In this document: one piece after another, positions 15,853-44,812 of the stretch | Layout: the number at the start of each line of letters is the position of its first letter | Numbering within the stretch: position 1 is the first letter of the stretch | Assembly: GCF_002283365.1 (NCBI RefSeq) | Contig: NZ_MQWD01000001.1 | Location: 2,885,749 to 2,949,748, forward strand | DNA: 64,000 bases | Direction: 5' to 3' | From: Rubrivirga marina | Lineage (GTDB): Bacteria > Bacteroidota > Rhodothermia > Rhodothermales > Rubricoccaceae | The notes under the pieces: model-generated | The model's database searches: none | Seen by the model: only the letters and a program-made list of their open reading frames with translations | Told to the model about the DNA's origin: nothing | Translations under genes and position numbers: made by a program

Positions 15853-15858
15853 GGGGTG

Positions 15859-15872: not shown

Positions 15873-15879
15873 AGGTGCC

Positions 15880-21087: not shown

Positions 21088-22767
21088 ATGCGCCCACCGC
21101 TCCTCCTCCTGGCCCTGCTCGCCTCGGTCGCCGTATCGGCGCAGCCGGAGGGCGAGGGCTACTACCACACCCGCGGCACGCGCCTCGTCAGCCCCGACGG
21201 GCAGCCCGACGTGCTCCGGGGGATCGGCCTCGGCGGCTGGCTCATGCCCGAGGGCTACATGGTCCGCGTCCCGGGCCACGGCTCGCCGACGACGATTCGC
21301 CAGCAGGCCGTCGAGGTGGCGGGGGAGGAGGGCGCCGACCGCTACTTCGAGGCCTTTCGCGCCAACTACGTACGGGAGGAGGACATCCAGAAGATCGCCG
21401 AGTGGGGCTACGACCACGTCCGCCTGCCCTTCCACTACAAGGTGCTCTGGGACGAGGAGGCCGGGGCCTTCGATGAGGACGGGTTCGCGCTGGTCGATGC
21501 GTTCCTCGAATGGTGCCGCGAGGCCGGGCTGCCGGTCATCTTCGACATGCACGCGGCGCCGGGCGGCCAGAGCGAGCACAACATCGCCGACGCCCACGGG
21601 ACGGCGGAGCTGTGGGTCGGGCCGAACGCCGCAGTGAACCAGGCGCTCACGATCCGGATCTGGGAGGAGATCGCCCGCCGCTACCGCGACGACCGGCTCG
21701 TCATCGGCTACGACATCATCAACGAGCCCGTCCTGCCGGAGGGCGTGACGCGGGCCGAGCTGCGCGACTTCTACGTGCGCTCCCGCGACGCCATCCGCGC
21801 CATCGACCCGCACCACGTCCTCTTTATCGAGGGGGACTTCTTCGCCAACTTCTTCGACGGGCTCACGCCGGCGTTCGACGACAACATGGTGTGGGCCTTC
21901 CACAAGTACTGGAGCCCGACCGACCCGGCCGACATGACGCGGTTCGTCGAGCTCCGCGACTCGACCGGCGTGCCGCTCTGGCTGGGCGAGACGGGCGAGA
22001 ACTCGAACGACTGGTTCCACGAGGTCGCGACGTGGGCCGTCGAGAACGGGATCGGGTGGAACTGGTGGACCCACAAGAAGATCGAGACGGTCACGAGCCC
22101 GCTCTCGGCCCCGATGCAGCCCGGCTACCGCGACCTCGTGGCCTACTGGCGCGGCGAGGCACCGAAGCCCGACCGCGAGACGGCCGAGGCGGCCCTCCTC
22201 GCCCAGGCCGCCGCGCTCCACATCGACTCGACGGCGTTCCGCCCCGACGTGCTGTGGTCGCTGTTCGACCCGGCGTGGGCCACGTTGGCGGTCCCCTTCA
22301 AGCCCCACACGCTCCCGGGTACGCTCGACGCCGTCGACTACGACCTGGGCGCCGACGGGGTCGGGTACCACGACACGCGCTCGAAGAACGAGCAGGGGAC
22401 GCCCGGCCTCGCCAACGAGGGCGGCGTCTACCGCAATGACGGCGTCGACATCGCCGCGAACGAGCGTGGGGGCCCGGCCTACCGCGTCGGGTGGACCGAG
22501 GCGGGCGAGTGGCTCCAGTACACGGTCCGCGTGCCCGCGGGCGGGACGTTCGCCGCCTCCGCCACGGTGACCGGCGGCGCCGGGCAACTGGCCCTCGAGG
22601 TCGACGGTGAGTCGTGGGGCGAGGCCGCCGTGCCCGCCTCGGGCGGGACGTGGGCCGAGGTCGACCTCGGCACGCACACGCTCAGCGCCGGTCCCCACGT
22701 CCTCCGCGTCCGGATCCGCGAGGGCGGGTTCGACGTCGGCCGCCTGACGTTCGACTCTACCGATTGA
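21088..22767 (+). CDS. GH5 family glucanase with C-terminal CBM6 (no sorting domain)
   Basis: The product has 559 residues with a signal peptide (cleavage near VSAQ). The GH5 barrel carries the acid/base E213 in IINEP and the nucleophile E301 in LWLGETGEN; GIGLGGWLMPEGYM near the N-terminus and WNWWTHKKIET resemble the glucan 1,3-beta-glucosidase and endoglucanase subfamilies. The last 130 residues look like a CBM6 module (GGVYRNDGVDIAANERGG, GWTEAGEWLQYTVRV). It ends directly after the module, unlike its paralogue at 36037, which adds a T9SS domain, so the two may act in different compartments. It is the second gene of the operon GH3-GH5-GH16. Confidence 0.9.
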   Translation: MRPPLLLLALLASVAVSAQPEGEGYYHTRGTRLVSPDGQPDVLRGIGLGGWLMPEGYMVRVPGHGSPTTIRQQAVEVAGEEGADRYFEAFRANYVREEDIQKIAEWGYDHVRLPFHYKVLWDEEAGAFDEDGFALVDAFLEWCREAGLPVIFDMHAAPGGQSEHNIADAHGTAELWVGPNAAVNQALTIRIWEEIARRYRDDRLVIGYDIINEPVLPEGVTRAELRDFYVRSRDAIRAIDPHHVLFIEGDFFANFFDGLTPAFDDNMVWAFHKYWSPTDPADMTRFVELRDSTGVPLWLGETGENSNDWFHEVATWAVENGIGWNWWTHKKIETVTSPLSAPMQPGYRDLVAYWRGEAPKPDRETAEAALLAQAAALHIDSTAFRPDVLWSLFDPAWATLAVPFKPHTLPGTLDAVDYDLGADGVGYHDTRSKNEQGTPGLANEGGVYRNDGVDIAANERGGPAYRVGWTEAGEWLQYTVRVPAGGTFAASATVTGGAGQLALEVDGESWGEAAVPASGGTWAEVDLGTHTLSAGPHVLRVRIREGGFDVGRLTFDSTD

Positions 22768-22778
22768 CTCCAGCTGCC

Positions 22779-24611
22779 ATGCTCCGACTGCTCTTCCTCG
22801 CGTTACTCCTCGGGAGCGCTTCCGTTCACGCCCAGGACTGGCAGCTCGTCTGGTCCGACGAGTTCGACGTCGACGGCGCGCCCGACCCGGCCAACTGGAA
22901 CTACGACATCGGGGGCCACGGCTGGGGCAACGCCGAGCGCCAGTTCTACACCGACCGGACCGACAACGCGCGCGTCGAGGACGGCGTGCTGGTGATCGAG
23001 GCGCGAGAGGAGGAGTACGAGGGCAACGACTACACGTCGGCCCGGCTCGTCACGCGGGGCACGGCAGCGTGGACGTACGGCCGGATCGAGGCGCGGATCA
23101 AGCTCCCGTTCGGGCAGGGCATCTGGCCGGCGTTCTGGATGCTCCCGACGGACTCGCCCTACGGCGGCTGGCCGGTCGGCGGCGAGATCGACATCATGGA
23201 GTACCTCGGCCACGAGACGAGTAGGGTCCACGGCACGCTCCACTACGGCGGCGGCTCGATCGGCCACCGGTACACCGGAACGTCCTATGACCTCCCGGAA
23301 GGGAGCTTCGACGAGGACTTCCACACGTTCGCGATCGAGTGGGAGCCGCGGCGGATCCGGTGGTACGTCGACGGCGAGCTCTACCAGACGCAGATCAGCT
23401 GGACGTCGGCCGGGGGACCGTACCCGGCGCCGTTCGACAGCCCGTTCCACCTGCTCCTCAACGTCGCCGTCGGCGGCCAGTGGCCCGGCTACCCCGACGA
23501 GACGACCACCTTCCCGCAGCGGATGGAGGTCGACTACGTCCGGGTGTATCAGGACGCCGAGGCGTACCCCGAGGTGGGTCTGGCCGACCCCTCAGGCGGT
23601 GGGACGGTCGAGGCCGGCGCGACGCTCACGCTGGAGGCGACGGCCGAGGACAACGACCCGATCGAGGAGGTGCGCTTTCTCCAGGGCGACGGGGTCCTCG
23701 GCGCCGACATCTTCGCGCCGTACGGTCTGACGGTCGAGGGCGTCGTGGACGGGTGCTACGCGCTCTCGGCGCAGGCGACCGACGCCGTCGGGTACACGGG
23801 CCGCAGCGAGCCGGTCGACCTCGTGGTCGGGGAGGGGTGCCCGGACGGCACCGCGTGGCCCTACCTCATGCGGCCGGCCGAGGTCCCCGGCGTGGTCCAG
23901 GCCGAGTACTTCGACCTCGGCGGGGCCGACGTGGCCTACCGCGACTTCTCCTCCGCCAACACTGGCGAGGGAATCCGCCTCGGGGAGGGCGTCGACCTCC
24001 GGCCGTCGAAGGACGACGGCGGCGGGCACGACCTCACCGACGTCTCCGCCCGCGAGTGGGTGACGTACACGATCGACGTGGCCGAGGCGGGCCGGTACCG
24101 GGTCCAGGCTCGGATGGCCTCCGGCGTCGGCGGCACGGTCCGGCTGTCGCTCGACGGCGACGACTTGACCGAGGACATCGCGCTGCCCCCGACCGGCGGC
24201 GACATCACGTATCGCAATGAGGTCATCGCGGAGGTCGAGTTGCCCGCGGGCCGCCACGTTTTCCGGGTCGACTTCCGGAGCGGCGGCCTCTCGATCAACA
24301 ACTTCCGGTTCAACTACCTCGGAGGCGTGGCCGTCGAGGACGACGCGCCGGGCGGCCTGGGACTCCGAGTCGCGCCCACGCCCGCCGCAGGCCGCGCGCG
24401 TATCGCCTTCGAGCTTCCGACCTCGGGCCCGGTCTTGGTCCGTGTCCTCGACGCTCTCGGCCGGGAGGTCCGGCGCGTGATGGCCGAGGATCTTGCGGCC
24501 GGCGACCACGCTACCGAGGTCGACCTATCGGGGCTCGCGCCCGGCGTCTACACCGTGACGCTGGCCGCGGGCCGAGACCTGCGGTCCGCACCGCTGGTCG
24601 TCGTTCGGTGA
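22779..24611 (+). CDS. GH16 laminarinase-like endo-beta-1,3-glucanase with CBM6 and T9SS sorting domain
   Basis: The 610-residue product has a signal peptide (SVHAQ). The GH16 jelly roll (about 20-265) shows the catalytic EIDIME signature: nucleophile E136, D138 and acid/base E141. The extra methionine gives the beta-bulge form typical of laminarinases. An Ig-like domain (about 270-350, ATAEDNDPIEEVRF), a CBM6 module (about 375-515, GVVQAEYFDLGG, REWVTYTIDVAEAGRYRVQ) and a T9SS C-terminal domain (about 530-610) follow. It should be secreted to the cell surface and cut laminarin or a related beta-1,3-glucan internally. The gene follows GH5 with an 11-base gap. Specificity for beta-1,3 over mixed-linkage glucan is an inference. 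Confidence 0.92.
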   Translation: MLRLLFLALLLGSASVHAQDWQLVWSDEFDVDGAPDPANWNYDIGGHGWGNAERQFYTDRTDNARVEDGVLVIEAREEEYEGNDYTSARLVTRGTAAWTYGRIEARIKLPFGQGIWPAFWMLPTDSPYGGWPVGGEIDIMEYLGHETSRVHGTLHYGGGSIGHRYTGTSYDLPEGSFDEDFHTFAIEWEPRRIRWYVDGELYQTQISWTSAGGPYPAPFDSPFHLLLNVAVGGQWPGYPDETTTFPQRMEVDYVRVYQDAEAYPEVGLADPSGGGTVEAGATLTLEATAEDNDPIEEVRFLQGDGVLGADIFAPYGLTVEGVVDGCYALSAQATDAVGYTGRSEPVDLVVGEGCPDGTAWPYLMRPAEVPGVVQAEYFDLGGADVAYRDFSSANTGEGIRLGEGVDLRPSKDDGGGHDLTDVSAREWVTYTIDVAEAGRYRVQARMASGVGGTVRLSLDGDDLTEDIALPPTGGDITYRNEVIAEVELPAGRHVFRVDFRSGGLSINNFRFNYLGGVAVEDDAPGGLGLRVAPTPAAGRARIAFELPTSGPVLVRVLDALGREVRRVMAEDLAAGDHATEVDLSGLAPGVYTVTLAAGRDLRSAPLVVVR

Positions 24612-24796: not shown

Positions 24797-26950
24797 ATGC
24801 CCACTGCTACTCTCCGGCGAACGGCCCTGCTGCTGCTAGCGCTCCTCGTGAGCCCCGTGGTCCTCGCCCAATCGATCGGCGACGAGTTCATCCTCTTCGT
24901 CGACGGTACCAACGTGATGGTCCCGTCGTTCGACGGCGGCCAAGTTGTCAACGACCCGCTCGACCCGACCTCCGGCAACAAGGTCGCCCGGTTCAACAGC
25001 GGGTCTTGGACCCACTCCGGCTTCGCGTGGGATCGGCTGGAGGGCGTCGACGCCACGGCCGCCGTCTCGGAGACCTACGGGGAAGGCTCGACGCTGTACC
25101 TCCGGATGCTCTCGGACCCGGCCAACACCGACGTCCCGGGCATCTCGATCATGCTCTCCGACGCCACCGACGACAGCGGGGCCAACGACGGGACGGCCGA
25201 CCCCGAGTTCCGTCTGCTCTGGCAGATCCCGAACGAGCTCCATGACGGCCAGTGGCACGACCTCGCCATCCCGCTCCCGCCGACGACGTACGCGGCCCTC
25301 GAAGAGGCCCGCGCCAACGGCGAGCTCGAGGACGGCGCGGAGAACTGGACGTACCCGGGCGCGTGGAGCACCGGCGGATTCGGCATCGGCCCTGGCTTCG
25401 GGACCGACACCGAGGACCCGCTCTGGGAGGAGTTCGGCTGGGACCACCTGTATCGGATCGGCCCGTTCTGGGATAACAACCAGGCCTCCGGACCGATCTA
25501 CCTCGACGACGTCTACATCGGCGGCCCGAACACCGACACGTCGCAGGCCTCGGAGCCCCCGGCGGCCATGAGCAACGTCTCGTTCACGACCGACGGGGCC
25601 GTCAACGTGGTCGATTGGCCTGACTCGGAGGAGTTCGGCGGCTACAACGTGTACGCGAGCCCGAGCCCGATCACGGACGTCGGCGCCGAGGGCGTCGTCC
25701 TGCTGAAGTCCGTCGGGTTCGGGGAGGAGACCGAGCTCCGGCACCGCTACGAGGTCCCGCACCCGTCGATGGGCGCGGAGCCGCTGTACTACGCGGTCAC
25801 GAGCCGGAGCGCGTTCGGCGTCGAGAACCCCGACGTGGCAACCAGTTCGGGCGAGATCGTCAACCCGGACCTCCCGCAGAAGGCGTACATCCTCGAGCTC
25901 ACGGGCGACCAGGCCGACGCCCTCTTCGACGCCGTCGCCTCGGGCGTCCCGTCGGACGAGGCGTTCGGCGACAGCCACCCCGTCTTCTACCTCGACTCGA
26001 GCCACCGCTCGCCGGGCGACGGCAGCTCGGCGGCGACGCTCCCGGACGACTCCGACAGCTCTGGCGAGTTCAAGATCGGCTACTCGAGCCTGAACGAGAT
26101 GTTCATCTATGGCGAGATCACCGACGACCAGGTGACGTGGGCGCCCCAGGCCGAGACTGGGGCCAACACCTGGAATTACGACTCGGCGGAGATCGTCTTC
26201 GGCCACTACGACGTCCGCAACACGGTCGGCGGGGGCATCTTCGAAGGCTCGCCGCACCAGGACATGATGCGCGGCGACGAGCCGGACTACGGCATGCGCC
26301 TGACGGCCTTCGGGGACGGCGCTGGCGGCATCGACCGGACGAGCACCTGGGTCGGCTGGAGCATCGACTTCGACATCCCCGGCTCGACGGCCGTCGAAGA
26401 GACCGACACCGGCTGGCGCTTCCTCACGCTCCTCCCGCTGGACCAAATCCAGAACACGGACGAGGGCGACGTCTTCCTGCCGGTCCCGGCCACCGACGAG
26501 ATCCAGTACCTCCCGTTCATCATCTCGATCAACGACGCCGACGGCGGCACCCGCGAGTCGCAGATCGTGTGGTCGATCAAGCCGAACGTGACGGGGCAGT
26601 GGTGGAACACGCCGGCGATGTGGGAGACGGTCGCCATGGCCGGCCTCGACGCCAGCTCCGTGGCGGTCGAGGACCCGGCCGGCCGCGACGGCTTCTCGCT
26701 CGCGCAGAGCGTCCCGAACCCGACGGCCGGCACGGCCGACATCGCGTTCACGCTGGGCGCCGCCACGTCGGTCCGGCTCGAGGTGTTCAACACCCTCGGC
26801 CAGCGCGTCGCGACGCTCGCCGACGGCCCGGTCGCCGCCGGTCCGCAGTCGCTCACGTTCGACACGAGCGGCCTCGCCGCGGGCGTCTACGTCTACCGGC
26901 TCTCCGCCGGCGACTACGTGACGACCCGCCGGATGACGGTCGTCCGGTAA
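24797..26950 (+). CDS. T9SS-sorted surface protein with CBM9-like domain, probable glycan binder
   Basis: The product has 717 residues and a signal peptide ending near VVLAQ. A jelly-roll domain (about 25-245) resembles carbohydrate-binding modules (GPIYLDDVYIGG is a typical last strand). An FnIII-like stretch follows (about 255-350), then a CBM9/DOMON-like beta sandwich (about 390-600, with NTWNYDSAEIVFGHYDVRN) and a T9SS C-terminal domain (about 630-717, VPNPTAGTADIAFTL). No glycosidase residues are seen. Placed before the TonB receptor and behind a LacI operator, it could do the surface glycan capture that SusD and SusE/F do in other Bacteroidota; this is inference. A stable hairpin follows the gene. 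Confidence 0.78.
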   Translation: MPTATLRRTALLLLALLVSPVVLAQSIGDEFILFVDGTNVMVPSFDGGQVVNDPLDPTSGNKVARFNSGSWTHSGFAWDRLEGVDATAAVSETYGEGSTLYLRMLSDPANTDVPGISIMLSDATDDSGANDGTADPEFRLLWQIPNELHDGQWHDLAIPLPPTTYAALEEARANGELEDGAENWTYPGAWSTGGFGIGPGFGTDTEDPLWEEFGWDHLYRIGPFWDNNQASGPIYLDDVYIGGPNTDTSQASEPPAAMSNVSFTTDGAVNVVDWPDSEEFGGYNVYASPSPITDVGAEGVVLLKSVGFGEETELRHRYEVPHPSMGAEPLYYAVTSRSAFGVENPDVATSSGEIVNPDLPQKAYILELTGDQADALFDAVASGVPSDEAFGDSHPVFYLDSSHRSPGDGSSAATLPDDSDSSGEFKIGYSSLNEMFIYGEITDDQVTWAPQAETGANTWNYDSAEIVFGHYDVRNTVGGGIFEGSPHQDMMRGDEPDYGMRLTAFGDGAGGIDRTSTWVGWSIDFDIPGSTAVEETDTGWRFLTLLPLDQIQNTDEGDVFLPVPATDEIQYLPFIISINDADGGTRESQIVWSIKPNVTGQWWNTPAMWETVAMAGLDASSVAVEDPAGRDGFSLAQSVPNPTAGTADIAFTLGAATSVRLEVFNTLGQRVATLADGPVAAGPQSLTFDTSGLAAGVYVYRLSAGDYVTTRRMTVVR

Positions 26951-26957
26951 CCCCGCA

Positions 26958-26984
26958 GGGCGGACGGGGAGGTCCCGTCCGCCC
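26958..26984. terminator. 11-base-pair hairpin after the CBM-protein gene
   Basis: GGGCGGACGGG and CCCGTCCGCCC form a perfect stem with a GAGGT loop, starting 8 bases after the stop. Only a short mixed pyrimidine stretch (GCACTCTTG) follows. It may reduce rather than block read-through into the receptor gene. Confidence 0.6.
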
Positions 26985-27056
26985 GCACTCTTGACTCCGG
27001 GGCGCCGGCCCGCGCTGGCGCCCCCCGTCGACGAACGCTCACCCGTTCCCTGGCCC

Positions 27057-29792
27057 ATGTCCTCTCGGCCGATCCGCACACTCGTTCTGACCCTCCTGGC
27101 CGCCGTCGTGGCGCTGGGGTCGTCCGCTTCGGCGCAGTCGCCGGGCAAGCTCGCCGGCCGCGTGGTCGACAACACGGGCGAGCCGCTCGTGGGGGCCAGC
27201 GTCCTCGTCGAGGGCACCACGCTCGGCGCCTCGACCGACGCCGACGGGTACTACTTCATCCTCCAGGTCCGGCCCGGGACGTACACGCTCCGCGTCTCGT
27301 ACATCGGGTTCGGGACGAAGGTGGTCGAGGGCGCCGTCGTTGAGGTCGACAAGACGACGACGATCGACGTGACGCTGGGCGAGGCGGTCGTGGCGGGGGA
27401 GGAGGTCGTGGTCCGGGCCGAGCGTCCGCTCGTGGAGCCGGCGCGGACGACGACGACGGCCGTCCTCGAATCGAAGGCGCTCTCGGAGCTCCCGATCGTC
27501 AACATCCAGGACGCCATCAACCTCCAGGCCGGCGTCTCCGACGGGCACTTCCGAGGCGGGCGCATCGGCGAGGTGGCCTACCTCGTCAACGGCGTCCCGA
27601 TCAACAACGCGTTCAACGGGCAGCAGGCCTTCGAGGTCGAGCAGAACATGGTCGAGAGCCTCGAGGTCATCTCGGGCGTGTTCAACGCCGAGTACGGCCA
27701 GGCCCTCTCCGGCGTCGTCAACATCACGACGAAGGGCGTGCCCTCGGAGTGGAACGCGCAGGTGCTCAGCTACGTGGGGTCGCTCGCGTCGACGCGCGAG
27801 ATCGAGTTCGTCTCGCGCACGACGGACCCGGGCACGGGCCTCTCGACGAGCGACTTCGAGAGCGAGCGCGTCAGCTACATGGACGCCGCGGCGTTCCCGA
27901 ACCTCCAGGACTACCAGGTGTCGCTGGGCGGCCCGCTGATGGAACGGCGCCTCGGCTTCCAGCTCTCCGGGCGGTACCTCGAGGACAACTCGTACTACCT
28001 CGGGCGCGACCTCTTCTCGCCGGGCGACCTCTCGTTCGGCCTCAACTCGGGCCTGCCGGACTCGCTCTGGTCGATCTCCTCGACCGGCGACGGCGACTTC
28101 GTCCCGATGAACCGGACGCAGCGGCTCTCGCTCAACGGCAACCTGTCGTTCGACGTGACCGACGCGCTCCGCCTCAGCTACGACGGGTTCTACCAGGGCG
28201 GGACCTACTACCCGTTCTCGCACGACCGGAAGTACGTCCCGCGCGGGCTGAACCCCACGGACTTCGTCAACCACACGCACATCGCGGCGGCCCGCTACAC
28301 GCTGGGCCGGAGCGCGTTCGTCAACCTGTCCTACAGCTTCCTCTACGACGACACCGACGTCGAGCTGTACGACGCGCCGACCGACGAGCGGTACGTCCGC
28401 GAAGAGCTCGGCCAGCTGGCGGGCGCGAACGCGTTCCAGGTCGCCGGCAACGACCTCTACACGAACTGGCTGCGGACCGAGACCCAGACGGTCGTCGGGA
28501 GCTACACGCACCAGCTCAACCGGGTCCACCTCATGAAGGCCGGCTTCCAGGGCCGGTTCCACCGGATCGACAACCGGTACTTCGGCATCGAGATCCCCGA
28601 GACGGGGGAGGCCGGGCCGGACATCTCGGAGAGCCCCTACGAGGACGATCAGCTCTCGACGACGCCCACCGAGTGGGCCGCTTATGTGCAGGACAAGATC
28701 GAGCTGGGCCGGATGATCATCAACGCCGGCCTCCGGTTCGATTACTTCGACCCCGACTACGAGATCCCCGTCGACTGGACCCAGGCGGGACTCGAGCGGA
28801 TCCCAAACCCCGAGGCCCCGGCGGACTCGATCTCGAACCGGACCCAGGCTGACATCGAGTACCAGGTCAGCCCGCGGTTCGGCATCGCGTTCCCGATCTC
28901 GTCGACCGGCGTCATGCGGTTCTCGGCGGGACTGTTCTTCCAGATCCCCAACTTCGGGCTGCTCTACTCGAACCCCGAGTACGAGGTCAACCCGCAGTCG
29001 GCGACGACGCAGTTCGGCAACCCGAACCTCAAGCCGGAGCGGACGCTCGCCTTCGAGCTCGGCCTCCAGCAGGGGCTGACGGACGACATCGGCGTCGACG
29101 TCACCATCTTCGCCAAGGACATTCGCAACCTCGTCGGCCAGGAGATCATCCGCGACCCGCGCGGTGACTTCGCGATCCGCTGGATCAACACGGACTACGG
29201 GAACGTGCGCGGCGTGACGTTCTCGCTGTTCAAGCGGGGCCGGAGCGCGCTCAACGGGTCGCTCGATTACACGCTCCAGTTCGCGCAGGGCACGGCGTCG
29301 TCGCCAGGCGAGGCGTTCGCCCGCCAGCAGGACGGCCTCCCGCCGATCCTCACGCTCGTCCGCCTCAACTGGGACCGGCGGCACATCTTGAACGGGACGA
29401 TCACCTACGCGCCGAGCCCGACCACCTCGATCACGGCCGTGGGGCGGTTCCAGAGCGGGACGCCTTACACGACGGTGCGCAACTTCGTCCGCTCGCCGGT
29501 CACCAACAACGCCGACCGGCCGCTGACCTTCGTGACCGACCTTCGGGCCTACTACAAGCCCCCGTTCGTGCCCGTCGACGCCAGCCTGTTCCTCCAGGTC
29601 CAGAACCTGTTCGACTCGGTCATCCAGCAGAACGTGTACTCTGATTCGGGCCGGGCCGACGAGACGATCAACCTGTCACTGTTCAACAACGTCCGTGTGG
29701 GCGGGCTGAACACGCTCGACGAGTACTACTACCGCCAGGACTTCTACGGCTCGCCGCGCCGCGTGAGCGTCGGCCTGCGCGTCGACCTCTAG
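27057..29792 (+). CDS. TonB-dependent outer membrane receptor with CarboxypepD_reg-like domain (SusC-like role)
   Basis: From the ATG the protein is 911 residues with a signal peptide ending near SASAQ. A carboxypeptidase-D regulatory-like domain (about 27-110, GKLAGRVVDNTGEPLVGASV) leads into the plug (about 125-235, INNAFNGQQAFEVEQNMVESL, AEYGQALSGVVNITTKG) and then a 22-strand-type barrel ending in an aromatic C-terminus. It would import oligosaccharides using TonB energy. No SusD gene accompanies it; the next genes encode a T9SS-sorted 1125-residue protein and a PorV-like protein. A TTG 22 codons upstream is in frame but gives a poor signal peptide. Confidence 0.9.
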   Translation: MSSRPIRTLVLTLLAAVVALGSSASAQSPGKLAGRVVDNTGEPLVGASVLVEGTTLGASTDADGYYFILQVRPGTYTLRVSYIGFGTKVVEGAVVEVDKTTTIDVTLGEAVVAGEEVVVRAERPLVEPARTTTTAVLESKALSELPIVNIQDAINLQAGVSDGHFRGGRIGEVAYLVNGVPINNAFNGQQAFEVEQNMVESLEVISGVFNAEYGQALSGVVNITTKGVPSEWNAQVLSYVGSLASTREIEFVSRTTDPGTGLSTSDFESERVSYMDAAAFPNLQDYQVSLGGPLMERRLGFQLSGRYLEDNSYYLGRDLFSPGDLSFGLNSGLPDSLWSISSTGDGDFVPMNRTQRLSLNGNLSFDVTDALRLSYDGFYQGGTYYPFSHDRKYVPRGLNPTDFVNHTHIAAARYTLGRSAFVNLSYSFLYDDTDVELYDAPTDERYVREELGQLAGANAFQVAGNDLYTNWLRTETQTVVGSYTHQLNRVHLMKAGFQGRFHRIDNRYFGIEIPETGEAGPDISESPYEDDQLSTTPTEWAAYVQDKIELGRMIINAGLRFDYFDPDYEIPVDWTQAGLERIPNPEAPADSISNRTQADIEYQVSPRFGIAFPISSTGVMRFSAGLFFQIPNFGLLYSNPEYEVNPQSATTQFGNPNLKPERTLAFELGLQQGLTDDIGVDVTIFAKDIRNLVGQEIIRDPRGDFAIRWINTDYGNVRGVTFSLFKRGRSALNGSLDYTLQFAQGTASSPGEAFARQQDGLPPILTLVRLNWDRRHILNGTITYAPSPTTSITAVGRFQSGTPYTTVRNFVRSPVTNNADRPLTFVTDLRAYYKPPFVPVDASLFLQVQNLFDSVIQQNVYSDSGRADETINLSLFNNVRVGGLNTLDEYYYRQDFYGSPRRVSVGLRVDL

Positions 29793-29799
29793 GCCCCCG

Positions 29800-32700
29800 A
29801 TGACGACCGACCGCGCCCCGCGTCCTTCCGACCGCCCCGTGCTCCGACCCCTCGCTTCCCTCGTCGTCCTCGCCCTCGCGGCGCCTGCGCTCGCGCAGGG
29901 CGGCTCCGACATCCCCGCCGGCATCCGAGGCGAGGAGACCTCGATCGCCCGCGGGATCCTCGACGGCAACCTCATCGAGACCAACTTCCGCAACCAGGGC
30001 GAGCTCTCGCGCTACGACGACGCGCCCTGGGGCGTCTGGCCCCGCGGCATCGGCGGGCGCCACATCGACGGCGTCGGCGTGATGGTGGCCGGGCAGGTCC
30101 CCGGCGAGCGGTCCGACTACCCGCAGTTCTACGGCGGGGCGCCGGACACGACGCTCAACCCGGTCATCCTCAACTACCGCGAGGCCGGTCGGCGGCTCGG
30201 GCCGCGGGGCAACCTGTGGGGCTGGCTCCCGCTCCCGGGCTTCCACAACCCGAACCGCCTTGACCCCTTCACGGGCGCCCGCAACCCGACGCCCGCGCTC
30301 AGCGACGACCCGACCTCGTGGCCGAACTCCTGGCCCGACCGCCTCAGCAACCCCGACGACCCCGGGTGGGCCGGCTTCTGGAATGGGTTCTTCGGCAAGG
30401 GCGTCTTCAACGCGGACCTCGAGGGGTTCTACGTGATCGACGACCTGAGCGACCACGAGTACCTCATCGACCCGCAGACCGGGGCGCCCTACAGCCCGTA
30501 CGGCGTGTTCGACCCAATCCCGAGTGACCCGTTGGCTGGCGGCCTCGGCCTCCAGACGAAGGTGCGGCTCTTCCAGTGGGCCAACGTGCTCGCCGAGGAC
30601 CTCATGTTCGTGCTCTACCGGATCACGAACGTCGGCCAGCACAACCACGACCGGCTCTACTTCGCGCAGGCTCAGGACTACGGCCTCGGCACGGAGGAGG
30701 GCGACGAGAACGCGGCGTTCGATCCGCTCCAGGATGTGGCCTACGGGTGGGACCAGGACGGGCTCTGCACGCGGACGACCGGCGGCCAGTACGAGTGCGG
30801 CTACACCGGCTTCGCGTTCCTCGAGAGCCCGACGCTCCAGGCCGACGCGCTCGACAACGACCAGGACGGGATGACCGACGAGCTCCGCTTCGGCGGGGCC
30901 GGCGCGCTCATCGAGGGGCAGGCGCAGATCCAGGCCGCCGCTGCCGCCGCGTACAACCTCCCGCTCTTCGAGGCCGCGTACAGCCCGATCACGCAGCGCC
31001 CCGCCTACGAGGCCGGCCGCTGGTGGACCGGTGACGAGAACATGGACTGGGTCGGGTTCGAGGACACGAATGGGAACGGGATGCCGGACCCCGGCGAGCC
31101 GGTCAACAACGACGTGGGCCGTGACGGGCTCGGGCCGTTCGACCTCGGCTACCCCGGGCCGGACGACGGCGAGTCCGACGGGATGCCGACGCCGGGCGAG
31201 CCCAACTTCGACGAGCTCGACATCGACGAGTCGGACCAGGTGGGCCTAACGGGCTTCGACCTCGGGACGCGGCCGTTCTACGAGAACGGCGACAACCTCC
31301 GGAGCGACACGTGGCTGTTCGACCGGATCATCAACTACGCCCAGTTCGAGCTCGGCACGCCGGCGGCCGACTTCCAGGCCGACATCGAGCCGTTCCTCCT
31401 GTTCGTCTCCGGGCCGGTGCCGCTCGCGCCCGGCGAGACGTCGTTCTTCTCGACGGCCTGGATCTTCGGCGCCAACGAGGCGGACTTCTTCAAGAACCGC
31501 CGGACCGCGCAGAACATCTACAACGCGGACTACAACTTCGCCCAGCCGCCGTTCACGCCGACGCTGACGGCCGTGCCGGGCGACGGCCGCGTGGTCCTCT
31601 CGTGGGACACCCTCGCCATCGCGAGCTACGACCGGTTCAGCCAGGAGTTCGACTTCGAGGGCTTCCGCCTGTACAAGGGGACGGACCCGCTGCTGACCGA
31701 CGCCCGGCTCATCACCGACGTCAACGGCACGCCGACGTTCTACCGCCCGATGGCGCAGTGGGACCTCGACAACGACATCTCGGGCGGCGTGTCCGTGCTC
31801 GAAGGCGAGGCGTCGTACAACGTGGGCTCGAACTCGGGCCTCCAGTTTTACTACGTCGACGAGAACGTGACGAACGGGGTCACCTACTACTACGCGCTCG
31901 TGGCCTACGACCGCGGCTTCCGGGACCCCGACAACCCGAACGCGGCGCCGATCGACCCGCAGGAGAACACGTTCAACTTCACGGTGAACCAGGCCGGGGC
32001 GCTGACGGGGATCTCGCAGAATGCGGCAGTGGTCACGCCGCGCGCGCCGGCGGCGGGCTACGTCGCGGGCGCCGCGAACGAGGACCTCTCGCGAGTCGCG
32101 GAGGGGATCGGGACCGGGTCAGGCAACGTTGAGGTCGTGAGCACCGAGGCGCTCGAGGACGGCGCGGTCTACCGGGTCACGTTCCACTCGGAGTACCTCG
32201 AGAACAGCGAGCTCTACGAGACGACGGGCTACAGCGTGACCCAGGTCGGCACTGGCGAGGTCCTTGTCGACCGCGCCGACCTGTCGCCGACGACGCCGTA
32301 CCTCGACGGGTTCGTGTTCCAGATGAACAACGACGCCGAGTCCGACATCGACCCGAGGCGGACGGGGTGGCGAGGGACCGGGTCGAACGGCAACACGGCC
32401 TACAGCCTCAACCCGGGCTCACTCAACGGCGTGTCGACGGAGTGGGGCGCGGTCATCGGCCGCGACTCGACCGGCCTCGGGGCCCGCACGCCCTGGGACT
32501 ACCAGCTCCGCTGGGTCGACGCGGCCGACTCGCTCTACTCGCCGCCGCGCGCCGTGGGCTTCCTCCGGACGCCCATCCCCATCTACGCGGTCAACGCCAG
32601 CAAGAACGAGCTGATCGAACTCCTGCCACGCGACATCGACGGAGACGGCGAGTTCGGGGTCGGGGACGAGTTGGTGATCGCCGAGGCGCCACCGAGCGGC

Positions 32701-33177
32701 GTCGGTCGGCGCTACGTCTACGTGGTTCGGTTCACGGGCGACGGCGCGGCGCCCGCCCCCGGGACCGTGTTCCAGGTGGGGGTCACGCGGCCGTTCTTCG
32801 AGGGCGACTTCTTCCAGTTCAGCCTCCGCGGCGCGTCGATCGACATGGACGCGGCGCAGGCGGAGATGGAGCGGATCGCCGTCGTGCCGAACCCCTACAT
32901 AGGGACGTCGATCTACGAGCCGCGCTCCCAGATCGAGGGCCGCGGCGAGCGGCGGGTCCAGTTTATCCACCTCCCACAGCGGTGCACGATCCGGATCTAC
33001 ACGATCCGCGGCGAGCTCGTCCGCACGATCGAGCACGACGGGATCGCCAGCGACGGGTCGGAGGCCTGGAACCTCCGGACGGAGGGCAACGAGGACGTCG
33101 CCTACGGGATCTACCTCTACCACGTCGAGGCCCCGGGCGTCGGCGAGTACGTCGGCCGGCTGGCCTTGGTGAAATGA
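29800..33177 (+). CDS. Large T9SS-sorted surface protein with calcium-binding-type repeats and FnIII-like domain
   Basis: This 1125-residue protein has a signal peptide (APALAQ). Several acidic Ca-binding-like loops are present (LDNDQDGMTDE, DTNGNGMPDPGEP, DIDGDGEFGVGDE) of the thrombospondin-3/dockerin kind. An FnIII-like domain lies at about 580-710 (GDGRVVLSWDTLA), and the C-terminus (about 1025-1125) is a sorting domain of the form VVPNPYIG...GIYLYHVEAPG. I do not recognise an enzyme. It starts seven bases after the TonB receptor gene and overlaps the PorV-like gene by four bases, so the three are one unit. I infer a receptor-associated surface component, possibly replacing SusD, but binding has not been shown. 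Confidence 0.75.
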   Translation: MTTDRAPRPSDRPVLRPLASLVVLALAAPALAQGGSDIPAGIRGEETSIARGILDGNLIETNFRNQGELSRYDDAPWGVWPRGIGGRHIDGVGVMVAGQVPGERSDYPQFYGGAPDTTLNPVILNYREAGRRLGPRGNLWGWLPLPGFHNPNRLDPFTGARNPTPALSDDPTSWPNSWPDRLSNPDDPGWAGFWNGFFGKGVFNADLEGFYVIDDLSDHEYLIDPQTGAPYSPYGVFDPIPSDPLAGGLGLQTKVRLFQWANVLAEDLMFVLYRITNVGQHNHDRLYFAQAQDYGLGTEEGDENAAFDPLQDVAYGWDQDGLCTRTTGGQYECGYTGFAFLESPTLQADALDNDQDGMTDELRFGGAGALIEGQAQIQAAAAAAYNLPLFEAAYSPITQRPAYEAGRWWTGDENMDWVGFEDTNGNGMPDPGEPVNNDVGRDGLGPFDLGYPGPDDGESDGMPTPGEPNFDELDIDESDQVGLTGFDLGTRPFYENGDNLRSDTWLFDRIINYAQFELGTPAADFQADIEPFLLFVSGPVPLAPGETSFFSTAWIFGANEADFFKNRRTAQNIYNADYNFAQPPFTPTLTAVPGDGRVVLSWDTLAIASYDRFSQEFDFEGFRLYKGTDPLLTDARLITDVNGTPTFYRPMAQWDLDNDISGGVSVLEGEASYNVGSNSGLQFYYVDENVTNGVTYYYALVAYDRGFRDPDNPNAAPIDPQENTFNFTVNQAGALTGISQNAAVVTPRAPAAGYVAGAANEDLSRVAEGIGTGSGNVEVVSTEALEDGAVYRVTFHSEYLENSELYETTGYSVTQVGTGEVLVDRADLSPTTPYLDGFVFQMNNDAESDIDPRRTGWRGTGSNGNTAYSLNPGSLNGVSTEWGAVIGRDSTGLGARTPWDYQLRWVDAADSLYSPPRAVGFLRTPIPIYAVNASKNELIELLPRDIDGDGEFGVGDELVIAEAPPSGVGRRYVYVVRFTGDGAAPAPGTVFQVGVTRPFFEGDFFQFSLRGASIDMDAAQAEMERIAVVPNPYIGTSIYEPRSQIEGRGERRVQFIHLPQRCTIRIYTIRGELVRTIEHDGIASDGSEAWNLRTEGNEDVAYGIYLYHVEAPGVGEYVGRLALVK

Positions 33178-34250
33178 CGTCGACGCGCACCCGCACCGGG
33201 CCCCACGGCCCCACCCCCATGCATCGCAGCCTCCTCCGCCGGATCGCTCTCGTCGTCGCCGCCGCCGCGCTCGCGGCGCCGGCGGGCGCCCAGGACCGCG
33301 TCGCCACGACGGCCGCGCCGTTCCTGACGCTCGGGACCGGGGCGCGGGGCCAGTCGCTCGGCCACGCCTACACGGCCACGGCGACCGGCGCCGACGCGCT
33401 CTTCTGGAACCCCGCCGGCGCGGCCCGGACGTACGGCTCGAACGGGACCGTCTTCCTGACGCAGCACGAGTGGCTCGCCGACCTCCGCTACAACGCGGCC
33501 GGCGTCACGCTTCCGGCCGGCGCGGGCGTCCTCGGGATCAGCCTCGCCTCGCTCGACTACGGCCGCGACGAGGTCCGCACGGAGCGGCAGCCGGAGGGGA
33601 CCGGCGACACGTTCGGGGCCTCGGACTTCAGCTTCGGCGTGAGCTACGCCCGCCCGCTCACCGAGGCGTTCTACTTTGGCGGGACCGCCAAGGTCGTCCG
33701 CCAGTCGATCTGGGACATGAGCGCGACCGGCTTCGCCGCGGACTTCGGCATCAGCCTCGACACCGGGTTCAACGGGCTCACGCTCGCGGCCTCGATCCAG
33801 AACTTCGGCACGAAGATGCGGATGAGCGGCATCAACGCCCAGCGCTACATCGACGTGGACGAGGGGACGAGCGGCAACAACGAGAACGTGACCTCCGAAC
33901 TCCAGATGGAGGGGTGGGACCTCCCGCTGTCGTTCCGCTTCGGCGCCTCGGCGCCCATCGTGCGGATGGCCGGCGCCGAGCTCCGCGTCATGGCCGACGC
34001 CCAGCAGACGAACGACAACGTGCTTAACACGGACCTCGGCGGGATGCTGAGCTACGACGCCGGTCCGGTCCGGCTGGAGGCCCGCGCCGGCTACCGCGAC
34101 GCGTTCGTCGAGGACGTCGACAACCACCTCTCGTTCGGCGGCGGCCTCTCGGCCGACGTGGCCGGCTACGACCTGGGCGTCGACGTGGCGTACCTCCCGT
34201 TCGACCGTCTCGGCAGCGCGACGCTGTTCGACCTCCGCCTGGAGTTCTAG
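33174..34250 (+). CDS. PorV/PorQ-like outer membrane beta-barrel (T9SS-associated)
   Basis: From the ATG that overlaps the previous stop the protein has 358 residues; an alternative ATG at 33219 gives a more compact signal peptide (MHRSLLRRIALVV, cleavage near AGAQ). The mature part begins with the FLTLGTGARGQSLGHAYTA and DALFWNPAGAA motifs seen in PorV/UPF0164 proteins, and continues as an alternating barrel that ends in FDLRLEF. PorV binds T9SS cargo after export and carries it to the attachment complex; here it may serve the adjacent sorted proteins. It is the last gene before a hairpin at 34294. Confidence 0.82.
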   Translation: MTSTRTRTGPHGPTPMHRSLLRRIALVVAAAALAAPAGAQDRVATTAAPFLTLGTGARGQSLGHAYTATATGADALFWNPAGAARTYGSNGTVFLTQHEWLADLRYNAAGVTLPAGAGVLGISLASLDYGRDEVRTERQPEGTGDTFGASDFSFGVSYARPLTEAFYFGGTAKVVRQSIWDMSATGFAADFGISLDTGFNGLTLAASIQNFGTKMRMSGINAQRYIDVDEGTSGNNENVTSELQMEGWDLPLSFRFGASAPIVRMAGAELRVMADAQQTNDNVLNTDLGGMLSYDAGPVRLEARAGYRDAFVEDVDNHLSFGGGLSADVAGYDLGVDVAYLPFDRLGSATLFDLRLEF

Positions 34251-34316: not shown

Positions 34317-34344
34317 CCGCCCCGTGCCCACCACCGCCCCGGAG

Positions 34345-36033
34345 ATGGCTCTTGGTCTCGACGTGCTCACTCGACGGATCGGCCTCGCGGTCGCCGCCGT
34401 GCTCTGCCTTGGCGTCGCTGGCTGCGCCAGCGACGCGCCCGAGGCGGACCCGGTGATCGCCGTCGTCGACGGCCTGGAGATGACGGCCGACGACTACCTC
34501 CGCTCGTACATCGACTACCTCGTCACGACCGGCCAGAACGACACGGAGGCGCTCCGCCAGCGGCACTTCGAGGCGCTCGTCGACGCCTACCTCCTCGGGG
34601 CCGAGGCCGAGCGGCGCGGGCTGGCGGCCGACAGCGCCCTCGACGCCGCGTCAGCGCTCGCGCGGCGGCGGCTGGTGGGCGCGCGCTACTACGAGGCGTC
34701 CGTCCTCGACACGCTCGCGGCCCCGGCCGAGGCCGACGTGCGCCGGGCCTACCAGCTCGGAACGGAGCAGCGGGTCGTCCGCCAGCTCTACTTCACCGAC
34801 GCCGACTCGGCGCAGGCGGCCTATGCCCGTCTCCAGGCCGGCCGGCCGTTCCTGGAGGAGGCGTGGGACCTCTACGGCACGCGCGACTCGACGGCCGGCT
34901 CGCTCGGCGCCGTCAGCTACTGGCAGGTCGACGACGCGTTCGCCGAGGCGGCCTTCGGCACGCCCGTCGGTGAGGTCACGCCGCCGGTCCGGTCCCGCCT
35001 CGGGTATCACATCATCAAGGTCGAGGACCGGCTCCGCAACCCGGTGCTGAGCGAGGACGAGTTCGCGCGCCGTCGGAAGGGCGTCGAGAGCCAACTCCGC
35101 CTGCGCCGCCGCCGCCTCGAAGGCGACTCGTTCGTCCGCGACTTTATGGGCCGCCGGAACGTGGCCGTCAACGGCCCGGCGCTCCGCGCGCTCCAGCAGG
35201 CCGTGGCTGAGTTGGAAGGGGACCCGCCACCGGACGCGCAGCAGGGCGGGGGAGAAGCCTTCACGCCCGGCGAGATCCACGTCTTGACAGAGGCGCTCCA
35301 GCCTCAGACTCCGCTCGCGACGTTCGACCTCGGCGGCCGGCAGCGCGTGTTCACGGTCGAGGATTACCTGTTCTGGCTCGACGTGCTCCCGTTCTCCGAG
35401 GCCCGCAACCGGACCGGCGCGTCCCTCGGCCGGGCCCTCCGCAACGAGGCGCTCGCGCAGGCCGGCGAGGCCGCCGGCGTCGCCGACGAGCCGGAGGTCC
35501 GCCACGAGCTGGCTCGGATGGACCGGCTCCGCCTCGCCGACGCCCTCCGCGCCCGCCTCCGCGCCGACTCGTCCGCCGCCGACCGCGCCCGCCTCGGTCA
35601 GGTCGCCGACCGGCTCGCGCTCGACCCGCGCCAGACCGTCGCCGACTTCTGGGTCGTCTCGTTCGAGAGCCGCGCCGAGGCGGAGGGCGCGCTCGCGGCG
35701 CTCCGGGCGTCGCCCGCCAGCGCGGAGGCTCGCCCCGGCTTCGAGCGCTTCGAGCGGCAGCCGCTGGCGGAAGCCCGCGACCTCGCGGCGGCCGTCCGCT
35801 CGGCGCCGCTCGGCGAGCCCGTGCTGGCGGCCACCGGCGACGGCCGGTGGGTCGTGCTCCGCGTGGCCGACCGGGCCGTCGAGGCCACCGGCGACGCGGC
35901 CGACGCCCTCGCCCCGTTCGCCGCCGAGGCGGGCCTCATTGAGCGGCTCCGTGCCGAGCGGCCCATCGAGATCCACGAGGAGGCGCTCGCCGCCGTCCTC
36001 CGCCCGCCGCCGGTCCCCACCGCACCGCGCTGA
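34345..36033 (+). CDS. PpiC-type peptidyl-prolyl isomerase lipoprotein
   Basis: The product has 562 residues from the ATG; its signal ends in the lipobox LGVAGC, so it is a lipoprotein. A SurA-like N-terminal segment (YLRSYIDYLVTTGQNDTEAL) precedes a parvulin domain (about 115-230, RQLYFTDADSAQAAYARL, DSTAGSLGAVSYW, GYHIIKVEDR). A second, degenerate parvulin-like part lies in the C-terminal half. It would help outer-membrane or exported proteins fold in the periplasm. An upstream GTG at 34324 is possible. It stands between the PorV-like gene and the second GH5 gene, with a 3-base gap to the latter. Confidence 0.85.
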   Translation: MALGLDVLTRRIGLAVAAVLCLGVAGCASDAPEADPVIAVVDGLEMTADDYLRSYIDYLVTTGQNDTEALRQRHFEALVDAYLLGAEAERRGLAADSALDAASALARRRLVGARYYEASVLDTLAAPAEADVRRAYQLGTEQRVVRQLYFTDADSAQAAYARLQAGRPFLEEAWDLYGTRDSTAGSLGAVSYWQVDDAFAEAAFGTPVGEVTPPVRSRLGYHIIKVEDRLRNPVLSEDEFARRRKGVESQLRLRRRRLEGDSFVRDFMGRRNVAVNGPALRALQQAVAELEGDPPPDAQQGGGEAFTPGEIHVLTEALQPQTPLATFDLGGRQRVFTVEDYLFWLDVLPFSEARNRTGASLGRALRNEALAQAGEAAGVADEPEVRHELARMDRLRLADALRARLRADSSAADRARLGQVADRLALDPRQTVADFWVVSFESRAEAEGALAALRASPASAEARPGFERFERQPLAEARDLAAAVRSAPLGEPVLAATGDGRWVVLRVADRAVEATGDAADALAPFAAEAGLIERLRAERPIEIHEEALAAVLRPPPVPTAPR

Positions 36034-36036: not shown

Positions 36037-38004
36037 ATGCTCCGCTCTCTCGCGCTCGTCCTCCTCTTCGCCGCGCCCGTGCTCGCCCAGGGCGACGGCT
36101 TCTTCCGCGCGAGCGACGGCCAGATCCTCGACGGGTCCGGCGAGCCCGTCGTGATTCGCGGCGTCGGGCTGGGCGGGTGGCTCGTGCCCGAGGGCTACAT
36201 GCTCCACATCAGCGCGCCCGACGGTGGGTCGCCGCGCTCGATCCGCGCCCAGATCGTCGACCTCATCGGCGAGGACGGGGCCGACGAGTTCTTCGAGGTC
36301 TACCGCGCCAACTACGTCGAGCAGAAGGACATCGACCAGATCGCGGCGTGGGGCTACGACCACGTCCGCCTGCCCTTCCACTACCTCGACTTCTGGGATC
36401 CCGAGACGGAGACGATCCGCGAGGAGGGCTTCCAGATCGTCGACGATCTCTTGGCGTGGTGCCGGCCGCACGGGCTCGAGGTGGTCCTCGACATGCATGC
36501 CGCGCCGGGGGCCCAGAACGCCGGCAACATCAGCGACAGCGACGGGACCGCGCGCCTCTGGACCGAGCCCGACCCGTACCAGGACTGGGTGGTCGAGATC
36601 TGGACGGCCATCGCCGAGCGCTACGCCGACGAGACGCTCATCATGGGGTACGACCTCATCAACGAGCCCGTCCTCCCCGACGGCATCCCCGGGAGCGACC
36701 TCCGCGACCTCTACGCCCGCCTCGCGGAGGCCATCCGCGAAGTCGACCCGAACCACCTGCTGTTTATCGAGGGCAACTTCTATGCGACCGACTTCAGCGC
36801 CCTCGAGGAGCCCGTCGACGACAACATGGTCTACGCGTTCCACAAGTACTGGAGCTCGGTCGGGCAGCCGTCGATCCAGTACCTCCTCGACCTCCGTGCG
36901 GAGACCGGCGTGCCGCTGTGGCTGGGCGAGACGGGCGAGAACTCGAACCCGTGGTTCTACGCCGTCCGCCGGCTCGCCGAGGCGAACGGGATCGGGTGGA
37001 ACTGGTGGACCCACAAGAAGATCGAGACTCTGAGCGCGCCCGCCTCGGCGCCGTTCGCGCCCGGCTATGAGGCGCTCGTCCGCTACTGGCAGGGGAACGG
37101 CGGCCGCCCGAGCGCCGAGGCCGCGCGGGCCGCTCTGCTCGCCATGGCGAACGGGCTCGACCTGGACCGGACGACCCGCAACGAAGGCGTGATCGCGGCC
37201 CTCTTCGACGACTCGTTCGGCACGACGCCGCGGCCCTTCCGCACGCACCGGATTCCGGGCACCATCCACGCGGTCGACTACGACCTCGGCGATCAGGGCG
37301 TGGCCTACAGCGACGCCGACCCGTGGGCGATCTCCGGGACGCCCGGCGGCGGCAACACGGGAGGCGCGTACCGGAACGACGGCGTCGACATCGAGCGGTC
37401 GACGGACCCGCAGGGCGCGGCGTACAACGTCGGCTGGGTCGAGACGCTTGAGTGGCTTCGCTACACGGCGACGGTCGAGGAGGCGGGGAGGTACGACGTC
37501 GAGATCCGCGTCGCGAGCGGCGGGACCGGCGGGCGGCTGGCGCTCGACGTCGACGGGGCGTCGCTCGGGACGGTGACGGTGCCGGGCACCGGCGGGTGGC
37601 AGTCGTGGCGGTCGGTCACGCTTCCCGGGGTCGCGATCCCGGCCGGCGAGCATGCGATCCGGGTGACGGTCCGCTCCGGCGAGTTCAACATCAACCAGAT
37701 GCGGTTCATCCGCGTCGGTGACACGGCGGTCGAGGGCGAGCCCGCCGTGCTCGGCGTTCGGATCGCGCCCAACCCGGCGGTGCGCTCGGCCACGTTGTCG
37801 CTGACCCTGCCCGCCTCGGGTGACGTGTCGGTGGTGGTGTTCGACGCGCTCGGCCGGCTCGCCGCAGTGACCGAGGCGGGCCGTCTCGGGGCGGGGGAGC
37901 GGGAGATCGACCTTCCGCTCCGGGGGCTCGCGCCGGGCATCTACCTCGTGCGGGTCACGGTAGGGGACGCGGCGGTGACGCAGCAACTCGTTGTCCACCG
38001 GTGA
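36037..38004 (+). CDS. Second GH5 glucanase with CBM6 and T9SS sorting domain
   Basis: The 655-residue product has a signal peptide ending near PVLAQ. The GH5 barrel matches the gene at 21088 over most of its length, with acid/base E210 in LINEP and nucleophile E298 in LWLGETGEN and the same GWLVPEGYM and WNWWTHKKIET blocks. A CBM6 module follows (about 430-560, GGAYRNDGVDIERST), and a T9SS C-terminal domain is added (about 570-655, IAPNPAVRSATLSL). The paralogue lacks this last domain, so this copy is the one expected at the cell surface. It ends the glucan locus. Confidence 0.9.
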   Translation: MLRSLALVLLFAAPVLAQGDGFFRASDGQILDGSGEPVVIRGVGLGGWLVPEGYMLHISAPDGGSPRSIRAQIVDLIGEDGADEFFEVYRANYVEQKDIDQIAAWGYDHVRLPFHYLDFWDPETETIREEGFQIVDDLLAWCRPHGLEVVLDMHAAPGAQNAGNISDSDGTARLWTEPDPYQDWVVEIWTAIAERYADETLIMGYDLINEPVLPDGIPGSDLRDLYARLAEAIREVDPNHLLFIEGNFYATDFSALEEPVDDNMVYAFHKYWSSVGQPSIQYLLDLRAETGVPLWLGETGENSNPWFYAVRRLAEANGIGWNWWTHKKIETLSAPASAPFAPGYEALVRYWQGNGGRPSAEAARAALLAMANGLDLDRTTRNEGVIAALFDDSFGTTPRPFRTHRIPGTIHAVDYDLGDQGVAYSDADPWAISGTPGGGNTGGAYRNDGVDIERSTDPQGAAYNVGWVETLEWLRYTATVEEAGRYDVEIRVASGGTGGRLALDVDGASLGTVTVPGTGGWQSWRSVTLPGVAIPAGEHAIRVTVRSGEFNINQMRFIRVGDTAVEGEPAVLGVRIAPNPAVRSATLSLTLPASGDVSVVVFDALGRLAAVTEAGRLGAGEREIDLPLRGLAPGIYLVRVTVGDAAVTQQLVVHR

Positions 38005-38224: not shown

Positions 38225-38905
38225 ATGCCGACCTCTGCCACCCTCCTCAGCGTCAGCGCCGCCGCCGAGCGGCTTGGCGTCCACGTCGGGACGATCCGGC
38301 GGTGGACGGACGAGGGCGTGCTCTCGGAGGTCCGGACGCCGGGGGGCCACCGTCGCATCCCGGCCGAGGCCGTCGAGCGGCTCCGAAGGGAGCGCGCGGG
38401 TGAGGCCCGCCCGGGCCCCGTCTCCGCCGGCCTCGGGCCCGACGGCGACCCGGCCGACGAGGCGTGGGCCGACCACGCCGTCGTCCACACGCGCTACGAG
38501 GTCCGCGCCAACGGCGACGCCGTCTGGAACCGGGCATTCGACGGGGCCGAGCGGGGGCACCGCCGCGAGACCGGTCGCCAGATGGTCGGTCTGCTGCTCC
38601 GCCACGTGGCGGGGCAGGGCGACGCCGAGGCCCGCAGCGCCGAGGTCCGCCGCCTGGCGTGGGGCTACGCGCTCGACATGAAGGACCGCGGCCTTCCGCT
38701 CTCCGAAGCGCTCCGCGCGACGCTCTTCTTCCGCGACGTCCTGACTGAGTCGACGGCCTACCACCCGCGCTTCGAGCAGAAGCCGCCGACGGACCAGATC
38801 GCCTTGATGCGGCGCGTGAACGAGTTCATGAACGAGGTCCAGATGACGATCGCGCGGGCCTACGAGACCGACGACCCCGCTGCCCTCCCACCCGCCGACG
38901 CATGA
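38225..38905 (+). CDS. MerR-like winged helix-turn-helix regulator heading the heme operon
   Basis: The 226-residue product has a MerR/excisionase-type DNA-binding domain at the N-terminus (AAERLGVHVGTIRRWTDEGVLSEVRTPGGHRRI). The C-terminal part (about 80-215) is an all-helical domain (RQMVGLLLRHVAG, MKDRGLPLSEALRATLFFRDVL) resembling helical sensor domains found with RsbR-like proteins; no metal or heme motif is obvious. Its stop overlaps the hemA ATG by four bases, so it is co-translated with the pathway and is a good candidate for its regulator. The signal it senses is unknown. Confidence 0.8.
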   Translation: MPTSATLLSVSAAAERLGVHVGTIRRWTDEGVLSEVRTPGGHRRIPAEAVERLRRERAGEARPGPVSAGLGPDGDPADEAWADHAVVHTRYEVRANGDAVWNRAFDGAERGHRRETGRQMVGLLLRHVAGQGDAEARSAEVRRLAWGYALDMKDRGLPLSEALRATLFFRDVLTESTAYHPRFEQKPPTDQIALMRRVNEFMNEVQMTIARAYETDDPAALPPADA

Positions 38906-42872: not shown

Positions 42873-42916
42873 TCGACCGGATCCACCGACCCCAGACTCA
42901 CCGACTGCCCCCACCG

Positions 42917-43708: not shown

Positions 43709-43729
43709 CCGACCTCCGCCGATCCCCCT

Positions 43730-44798: not shown

Positions 44799-44812
44799 CG
44801 CCCCGACCCTCC

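Follow-up and report, generated by a model that had tools for sequence, protein, structure and literature searches.

Glycan uptake in the Fibrobacterota-Chlorobiota-Bacteroidota (FCB) group is usually inferred from SusC-SusD pairs. TonB-dependent receptors (TBDTs) can, however, use lids other than SusD, as illustrated by the vitamin B12 importer BtuB-BtuG (PMC10404256). In the type IX secretion system (T9SS) of Porphyromonas, PorU and PorZ retain their C-terminal domains (CTDs) uncleaved (PMC11285876); PorU is tethered by PorV and PorZ is apparently anchored by PorQ (PMC5562754). Type B CTDs depend on a cognate shuttle encoded downstream (PMC12618676). Here, we analyzed a stretch of 64,000 nucleotides from Rubrivirga marina (contig NZ_MQWD01000001.1, positions 2,885,749 to 2,949,748; hereafter the window), which holds a TBDT gene followed by genes for a 1125-aa protein (working name LID) and a PorV/PorQ-family outer-membrane barrel. 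On balance, we favor reading this triplet as the core of a glycan importer that depends on TonB but not on SusD, with a surface partner exported by the T9SS and anchored by its own PorV paralogue. A first-pass annotation of the DNA had proposed that T9SS-exported proteins replace SusD in this locus, an idea which has gained much support and is, overall, partly supported.

The receptor differs from SusC. It contains both plug and beta-barrel (PF07715, 31.6 bits; PF00593, 103.7 bits; both over their cut-offs), and its score of 87.4 bits against the SusC/RagA model TIGR04056 lies below the cut-off of 368.25. In the receptor tree, the four SusD-linked SusC proteins of the genome are split from all 22 LID-linked receptors with a support of 100/100; the placement of some long branches among the 22 is unsure. 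As the first-pass annotation had stated, the locus is without SusD: none of its eight proteins that were scanned matches SusD_RagB. Four SusD matches are present in the genome (4.98 Mb, 97% complete), all away from this locus and each adjoining its own SusC-type receptor; about nine module copies stand against these four SusC-SusD pairs. Among 45 genomes of the order surveyed for SusD, six lack it (G231, G085, G219, G096, G135 and G239; 97-99% complete), and all six have strong LID matches. The triplet was read directly in three of these, together with genes of glycoside hydrolase families 3 and 16 (GH3, GH16), carbohydrate-binding module family 9 (CBM9) and the PPIC family in G085, with GH16 and PPIC genes in G239, and with a CBM9-type gene in G135. 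Because near-complete relatives carry the module but no SusD, SusD is not required. The objection that a SusD encoded elsewhere might be needed therefore fails, as the four SusDs are paired with their own SusCs and near-complete, module-bearing relatives are SusD-free. That the module is real and independent of SusD is practically certain.

The triplet is conserved well beyond this genome. When 84,980 species were scanned with a degenerate pattern, at least 505 relatives were returned, of which the best 80 loci were taken. Since the order TBDT-LID-PorV on one strand recurs in all of these 80 loci whose contig reaches far enough, its recurrence is far above chance; the gap has a median of 19 bp at each of the two junctions (75 and 79 loci). 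LID and PorV are about 1.4 kb apart in five loci, of which four carry the name Neomarinimicrobiota (Fidelibacterota), and this space is filled by a PPIC gene in the four loci inspected for it (4/4). The named phyla number at least six: Rhodothermota, Balneolota, Ignavibacteriota, Calditrichota, Kryptoniota and Fidelibacterota. As the 80 loci are the best matches, five further loci from other genomes were taken, and all five hold the triplet. Apparent relatives with a swapped N-terminus, suggested by partial profile matches, were rejected, since the match was merely split in two and the five further loci are triplets. A LID match at 1e-10 was found in 190 of the 395 genomes of the phylum, and the weakest of these matches probably correspond to just a portion of LID. 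Divergence is correlated among the three proteins, both across 73 triplets (r 0.94-0.97) and across the eight triplets of the R. marina genome (r 0.59-0.86, p below 0.007). One full triplet lies on a contig labelled Caldisericaceae (L083), which is probably mislabelled or mis-binned.

Within the R. marina genome, TBDT, LID and PorV genes are consecutive in the window and in seven further loci (L034, L035, L036, L037, L038, L040 and L044), and in L041 TBDT and LID are followed by a PorV gene about 7 kb further on. Counting that of the window, the genome encodes five full-length members of the 1125-aa family, and shorter proteins that match its C-terminus. Some copies carry further genes: a LacI-type regulator opens L038 and L040, GH3 closes L038, and L035 holds GH130, an apparent sugar-binding protein and two apparent permeases. 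In L036, L037, L041 and L044, the TBDT-linked proteins resemble the 1125-aa family in the CTD alone, with no Pfam domain in the remainder; the ligands of these units may not be glycans.

The AlphaFold2 model of the 1125-aa protein (pLDDT 86.6, 77-sequence alignment) predicts a supersandwich at residues ~36-580, followed by a stretch resembling fibronectin type III (FN3). Fold matches to the supersandwich are GH94-type phosphorylases, dextran dextrinase, laminaribiose phosphorylase and GH116 enzymes (Z 16-20 over ~260 residues). An enzymatic role was rejected, as the model is nearly all strand and is without the (alpha/alpha)6 helical catalytic barrel. No SusD-like match appeared in the fold-match lists, which may miss one. 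At the N-terminus lies a Sec signal that ends in ALA-Q; a lipobox is absent. The last domain (~1014-1125) matches the structure of PorZ (5m11; Z 11.5 over 91 residues, 25% identity, root-mean-square deviation 2.2) and is the best conserved part of the protein, its alignment columns averaging 60% identity across phyla, compared with 36% over the full length. The first-pass annotation had called the protein T9SS-sorted. A curated family match over cut-off is not part of the support for this, as no Pfam or NCBIfam model scored over cut-off and neither TIGR04183 (Por_Secre_tail, type A T9SS cargo) nor PF13585 (CHU_C, type B signal) matched at E 0.1; what upholds it is a weak C-terminal sequence similarity to PorZ and PorU and the predicted CTD fold. 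In the model, the CTD is of the PorU/PorZ class.

This CTD class coincides with genes of the PorV/PorQ family. A CTD profile search of the genome gave exactly 11 matches, namely nine TBDT-linked proteins, a PorZ-like propeller protein and PorU; of the roughly 127 type A CTD matches in the genome, the profile recovers only those within the same 11 proteins. A PorV/PorQ-family gene, of which the genome has 14 matches, directly adjoins 10 of the 11. The PorV-like protein of the window scores 142.9 bits against NF033709 (cut-off 90) and stays far below the cut-off of the core T9SS PorV model NF033710 (43.3 bits against 250). The core PorV adjoins PorU elsewhere in the genome, and the T9SS is present (SprA, 1418.9 bits; PorU, 869.7 bits; both over cut-off). 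The layout of CTD protein and barrel seen in the triplets also occurs in two further loci, where the core PorV comes after PorU (L042:4818-10155) and a PorQ-like gene after the PorZ-like propeller protein (L045:8147-11604). The simplest reading, and the most likely one, would be that each LID has a private PorV shuttle and anchor. This most likely role of the PorV-like gene was absent from the reading of the first-pass annotation. The 1125-aa protein is very likely exported by the T9SS, and its lasting anchoring by the cognate PorV is rather likely.

The neighboring genes point to a role in carbohydrate uptake, which we regard as highly probable. Many triplets of Rhodothermota and Balneolota have GH3 and/or GH16 relatives nearby, and such relatives are seen again in Ignavibacteriota and Calditrichota. 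Among 87 neighbors of other triplets, a Pfam census counted 17 sugar-type solute-binding proteins, 24 permease domains, 6 GH130, 5 LacI and 7 PPIC. The CBM9-like protein was confirmed as a T9SS-sorted protein encoded 5' of the receptor (TIGR04183, 38.0 bits against a cut-off of 23). Its sequence match to CBM9_1 is marginal, while its predicted fold (AlphaFold2, pLDDT 85.1) strongly confirms CBM9: it comprises a CBM11/30-like domain (CBM30/CBM11, Z about 11.5), FN3, CBM9 and a type A T9SS tail, and the CBM9 domain matches CBM9s solved with cellobiose or glucose (Z 19.3). Based on the GH3 and GH16 neighbors, the census and this fold, the ligand here is probably a beta-glucan such as laminarin, with other glycans elsewhere.

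The first-pass annotation had cast both sorted proteins as possible substitutes for SusD. For the 1125-aa protein this gains support from the invariant synteny across six phyla, the non-SusC receptor, the SusD-free genomes and the fold. The CBM9 protein does not fit, as a relative lies beside only 36 of the 80 triplets (some contigs are too short to tell), and it therefore seems to be an accessory binder and not a stand-in for SusD. Missed by the first-pass annotation was a gene for a PPIC lipoprotein that regularly accompanies the triplet in the clade of the window, with a relative beside 30 of 31 triplets; its product is probably an outer-membrane folding helper. The PPIC gene is not fixed in position: it follows PorV in the clade of the window, separates LID from PorV in the Neomarinimicrobiota loci L114, L117, L123 and L129, and precedes the TBDT in L040 (L040:5009-6697).

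We propose that the system could work as follows. The 1125-aa protein would cross the inner membrane via Sec and then use its PorU/PorZ-class CTD to pass the T9SS translocon. The PorV paralogue encoded downstream would collect it and hold it at the outer-membrane surface, with no handover to PorU for cleavage. GH16 and GH5 would cut glucan at the surface, and the CBM9 protein and LID would hold the pieces. The supersandwich would bind oligosaccharides, and LID, placed next to or over the barrel, would hand them to the TBDT for TonB-driven import. GH3 may trim the product, and the PPIC lipoprotein probably aids folding of the outer-membrane parts. Module copies with sugar ATP-binding cassette (ABC) transporters or GH130 would serve other glycans.

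We lean towards a contact between LID and the receptor. More tentatively, the module may represent a further class of TonB-dependent nutrient importer, in which the lid would be a T9SS-exported, catalytically empty supersandwich protein that replaces SusD across several FCB phyla, its uncleaved CTD sitting permanently on a private PorV barrel next to the receptor. Several points weigh against the importer reading as a whole. The interface, the ligand and the localization are all things we infer, as are PorV anchoring, glycan binding and lid action, and a supersandwich fold alone is no proof of sugar binding. Some module copies are without an evident adjoining glycosidase, and the co-divergence loses significance when the five full-length paralogues of the genome are taken alone. 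Finally, the cleavage state of a CTD is unreadable from sequence, as no feature was found that sets cleaved and uncleaved CTDs apart (PMC11285876).

The evidence for anchoring and for the fold would fit equally well if the 1125-aa protein were a PorV-anchored glycan binder near the receptor, neither capping nor contacting a TBDT that works alone. We consider this unlikely: a free binder would not be expected to be paired so strictly, without exception among the loci, with a single receptor clade, and the CBM9 protein, which is binder-like, is not invariant. Another explanation makes the 1125-aa protein an ordinary T9SS cargo that the nearby PorV does no more than collect, its CTD being cleaved by PorU and its body released or linked to anionic lipopolysaccharide (A-LPS). 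PorU and the main PorV are present in the genome and cleaved and uncleaved CTDs fold alike (PMC11285876); this explanation appears less likely again. The TBDT could also be a secretion helper for the 1125-aa protein, like Oar of Myxococcus, making the unit a secretion or surface-display device. A TBDT required for protein secretion has precedent (PMC6434023). However, sugar ABC importers, GH130, LacI, GH3 and GH16 lie beside independent copies and a full T9SS already handles export, so this role is highly improbable.

The genes of the locus lie on one strand (+) in the order GH3-GH5-GH16-CBM9 protein-TBDT-1125-aa protein-PorV family-PPIC-GH5 (Table 1). The reported 7-base spacing between TBDT and 1125-aa genes is exact, the TBDT stop ending at 29792 and the ATG of the next gene lying at 29800. 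The reported 4-base overlap between the 1125-aa and PorV-family genes holds for a stop ending at 33177 and an in-frame ATG at 33174, and is common to seven relatives as well; it depends on the choice of start, and an internal ATG at 33219 (Met16, MHRSLLRR...) gives the PorV-family protein a more typical signal peptide. For the TBDT, the probable start is ATG 27057 and not TTG 26991, with the signal peptide MSSRPIRTLVLTLLAAVVALGSSASAQ, which places the CBM9-like gene about 106 bp upstream. The GH16 gene possibly starts a few codons 5' of 22773. An Rfam scan of window positions 17-39 kb found no RNA elements at gathering scores.

Table 1. Genes of the locus, with positions in the window and the basis of each assignment.
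Feature	Position	Strand	Basis
GH3 beta-glucosidase-type enzyme, signal peptide	18809..21085	+	PF00933, PF01915
GH5 with CBM6/35-like module	21088..22767	+	PF00150, PF18099
GH16 beta-glucanase, CBM6, T9SS-type tail	22773..24611	+	PF00722, PF03422; PF18962 below cut-off
CBM9-like accessory glycan-binding protein (predicted)	24797..26950	+	TIGR04183 38.0 bits; AlphaFold2 fold
TonB-dependent receptor (TBDT), 911 aa, CarboxypepD_reg, plug and barrel	27057..29792	+	PF13620, PF07715, PF00593
1125-aa protein (LID), predicted surface protein	29800..33177	+	AlphaFold2, fold matches, 77-sequence alignment, CTD profile
PorV/PorQ-family outer-membrane barrel	33174..34250	+	NF033709 142.9 bits; profile match to PorV 6h3i, E 1e-22
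PPIC-type peptidyl-prolyl isomerase, lipobox VAGC	34324..36033	+	PF13145/PF00639
GH5, CBM6, type A T9SS tail	36037..38004	+	PF00150, PF03422, PF18962; TIGR04183 40.4 bits

Outside the locus, the - strand encodes a 1268-aa protein (12070-15873) with ThuA, glucose/sorbosone dehydrogenase, PKD, CBM6 and PA14 domains and a T9SS tail, and a sodium:solute symporter (10415-11968), a possible inner-membrane path for released sugar. Positions 38225-45888 hold a MerR-type regulator, glutamyl-tRNA reductase and then apparent further heme biosynthesis genes.

If the module does the job of SusC-SusD, many uptake loci have been overlooked in Rhodothermota, Balneolota, Ignavibacteriota, Calditrichota and Fidelibacterota, likely laminarin users included. 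The T9SS would then be tied directly to nutrient import, and many PorV/PorQ paralogues would gain a job as private shuttle and anchor. A large natural set also becomes available for testing why some CTDs stay on their proteins. Searches of the open-licence literature, which holds no preprints or subscription papers, turned up no account of the triplet, and its novelty is thereby not proven; an early paper on the Melioribacter genome mentions Sus-type proteins only (PMC3534657).

Of the described systems, SusC-SusD and RagA-RagB share with the module a TBDT with an N-terminal CarboxypepD_reg domain, a co-encoded surface partner and a setting in glycan loci. However, the partner here is a supersandwich protein with a T9SS-type CTD, which is not a SusD and has no lipobox; the receptor scores far below the SusC cut-off and belongs to another clade, and a PorV-family barrel is always co-encoded. 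BtuB-BtuG likewise combines a TBDT with a non-SusD surface partner as lid (PMC10404256), but BtuG is a B12-binding lipoprotein, and that system has neither a T9SS CTD nor a PorV-family gene. The PorU-PorV/PorZ-PorQ attachment complex pairs a CTD protein of the same class with a PorV/PorQ barrel (PMC5562754), their genes being adjacent in this genome, whereas it includes no TBDT and serves cargo processing and attachment, not uptake. Type B CTD proteins resemble the module in that the cargo gene is followed by that of its own shuttle barrel of the PorP/SprF-like kind, possibly a lasting anchor (PMC12618676, PMC9143113), although the CTD type and the shuttle family are different and adhesins are the cargo known for them. 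GH94-type phosphorylases and related enzymes share the N-terminal supersandwich, while the 1125-aa protein is without their (alpha/alpha)6 barrel and instead carries the FN3-like stretch and the T9SS-type CTD. Collectively, we file the module as a variant of TonB-dependent, partner-assisted import and not as a member of the SusCD family.
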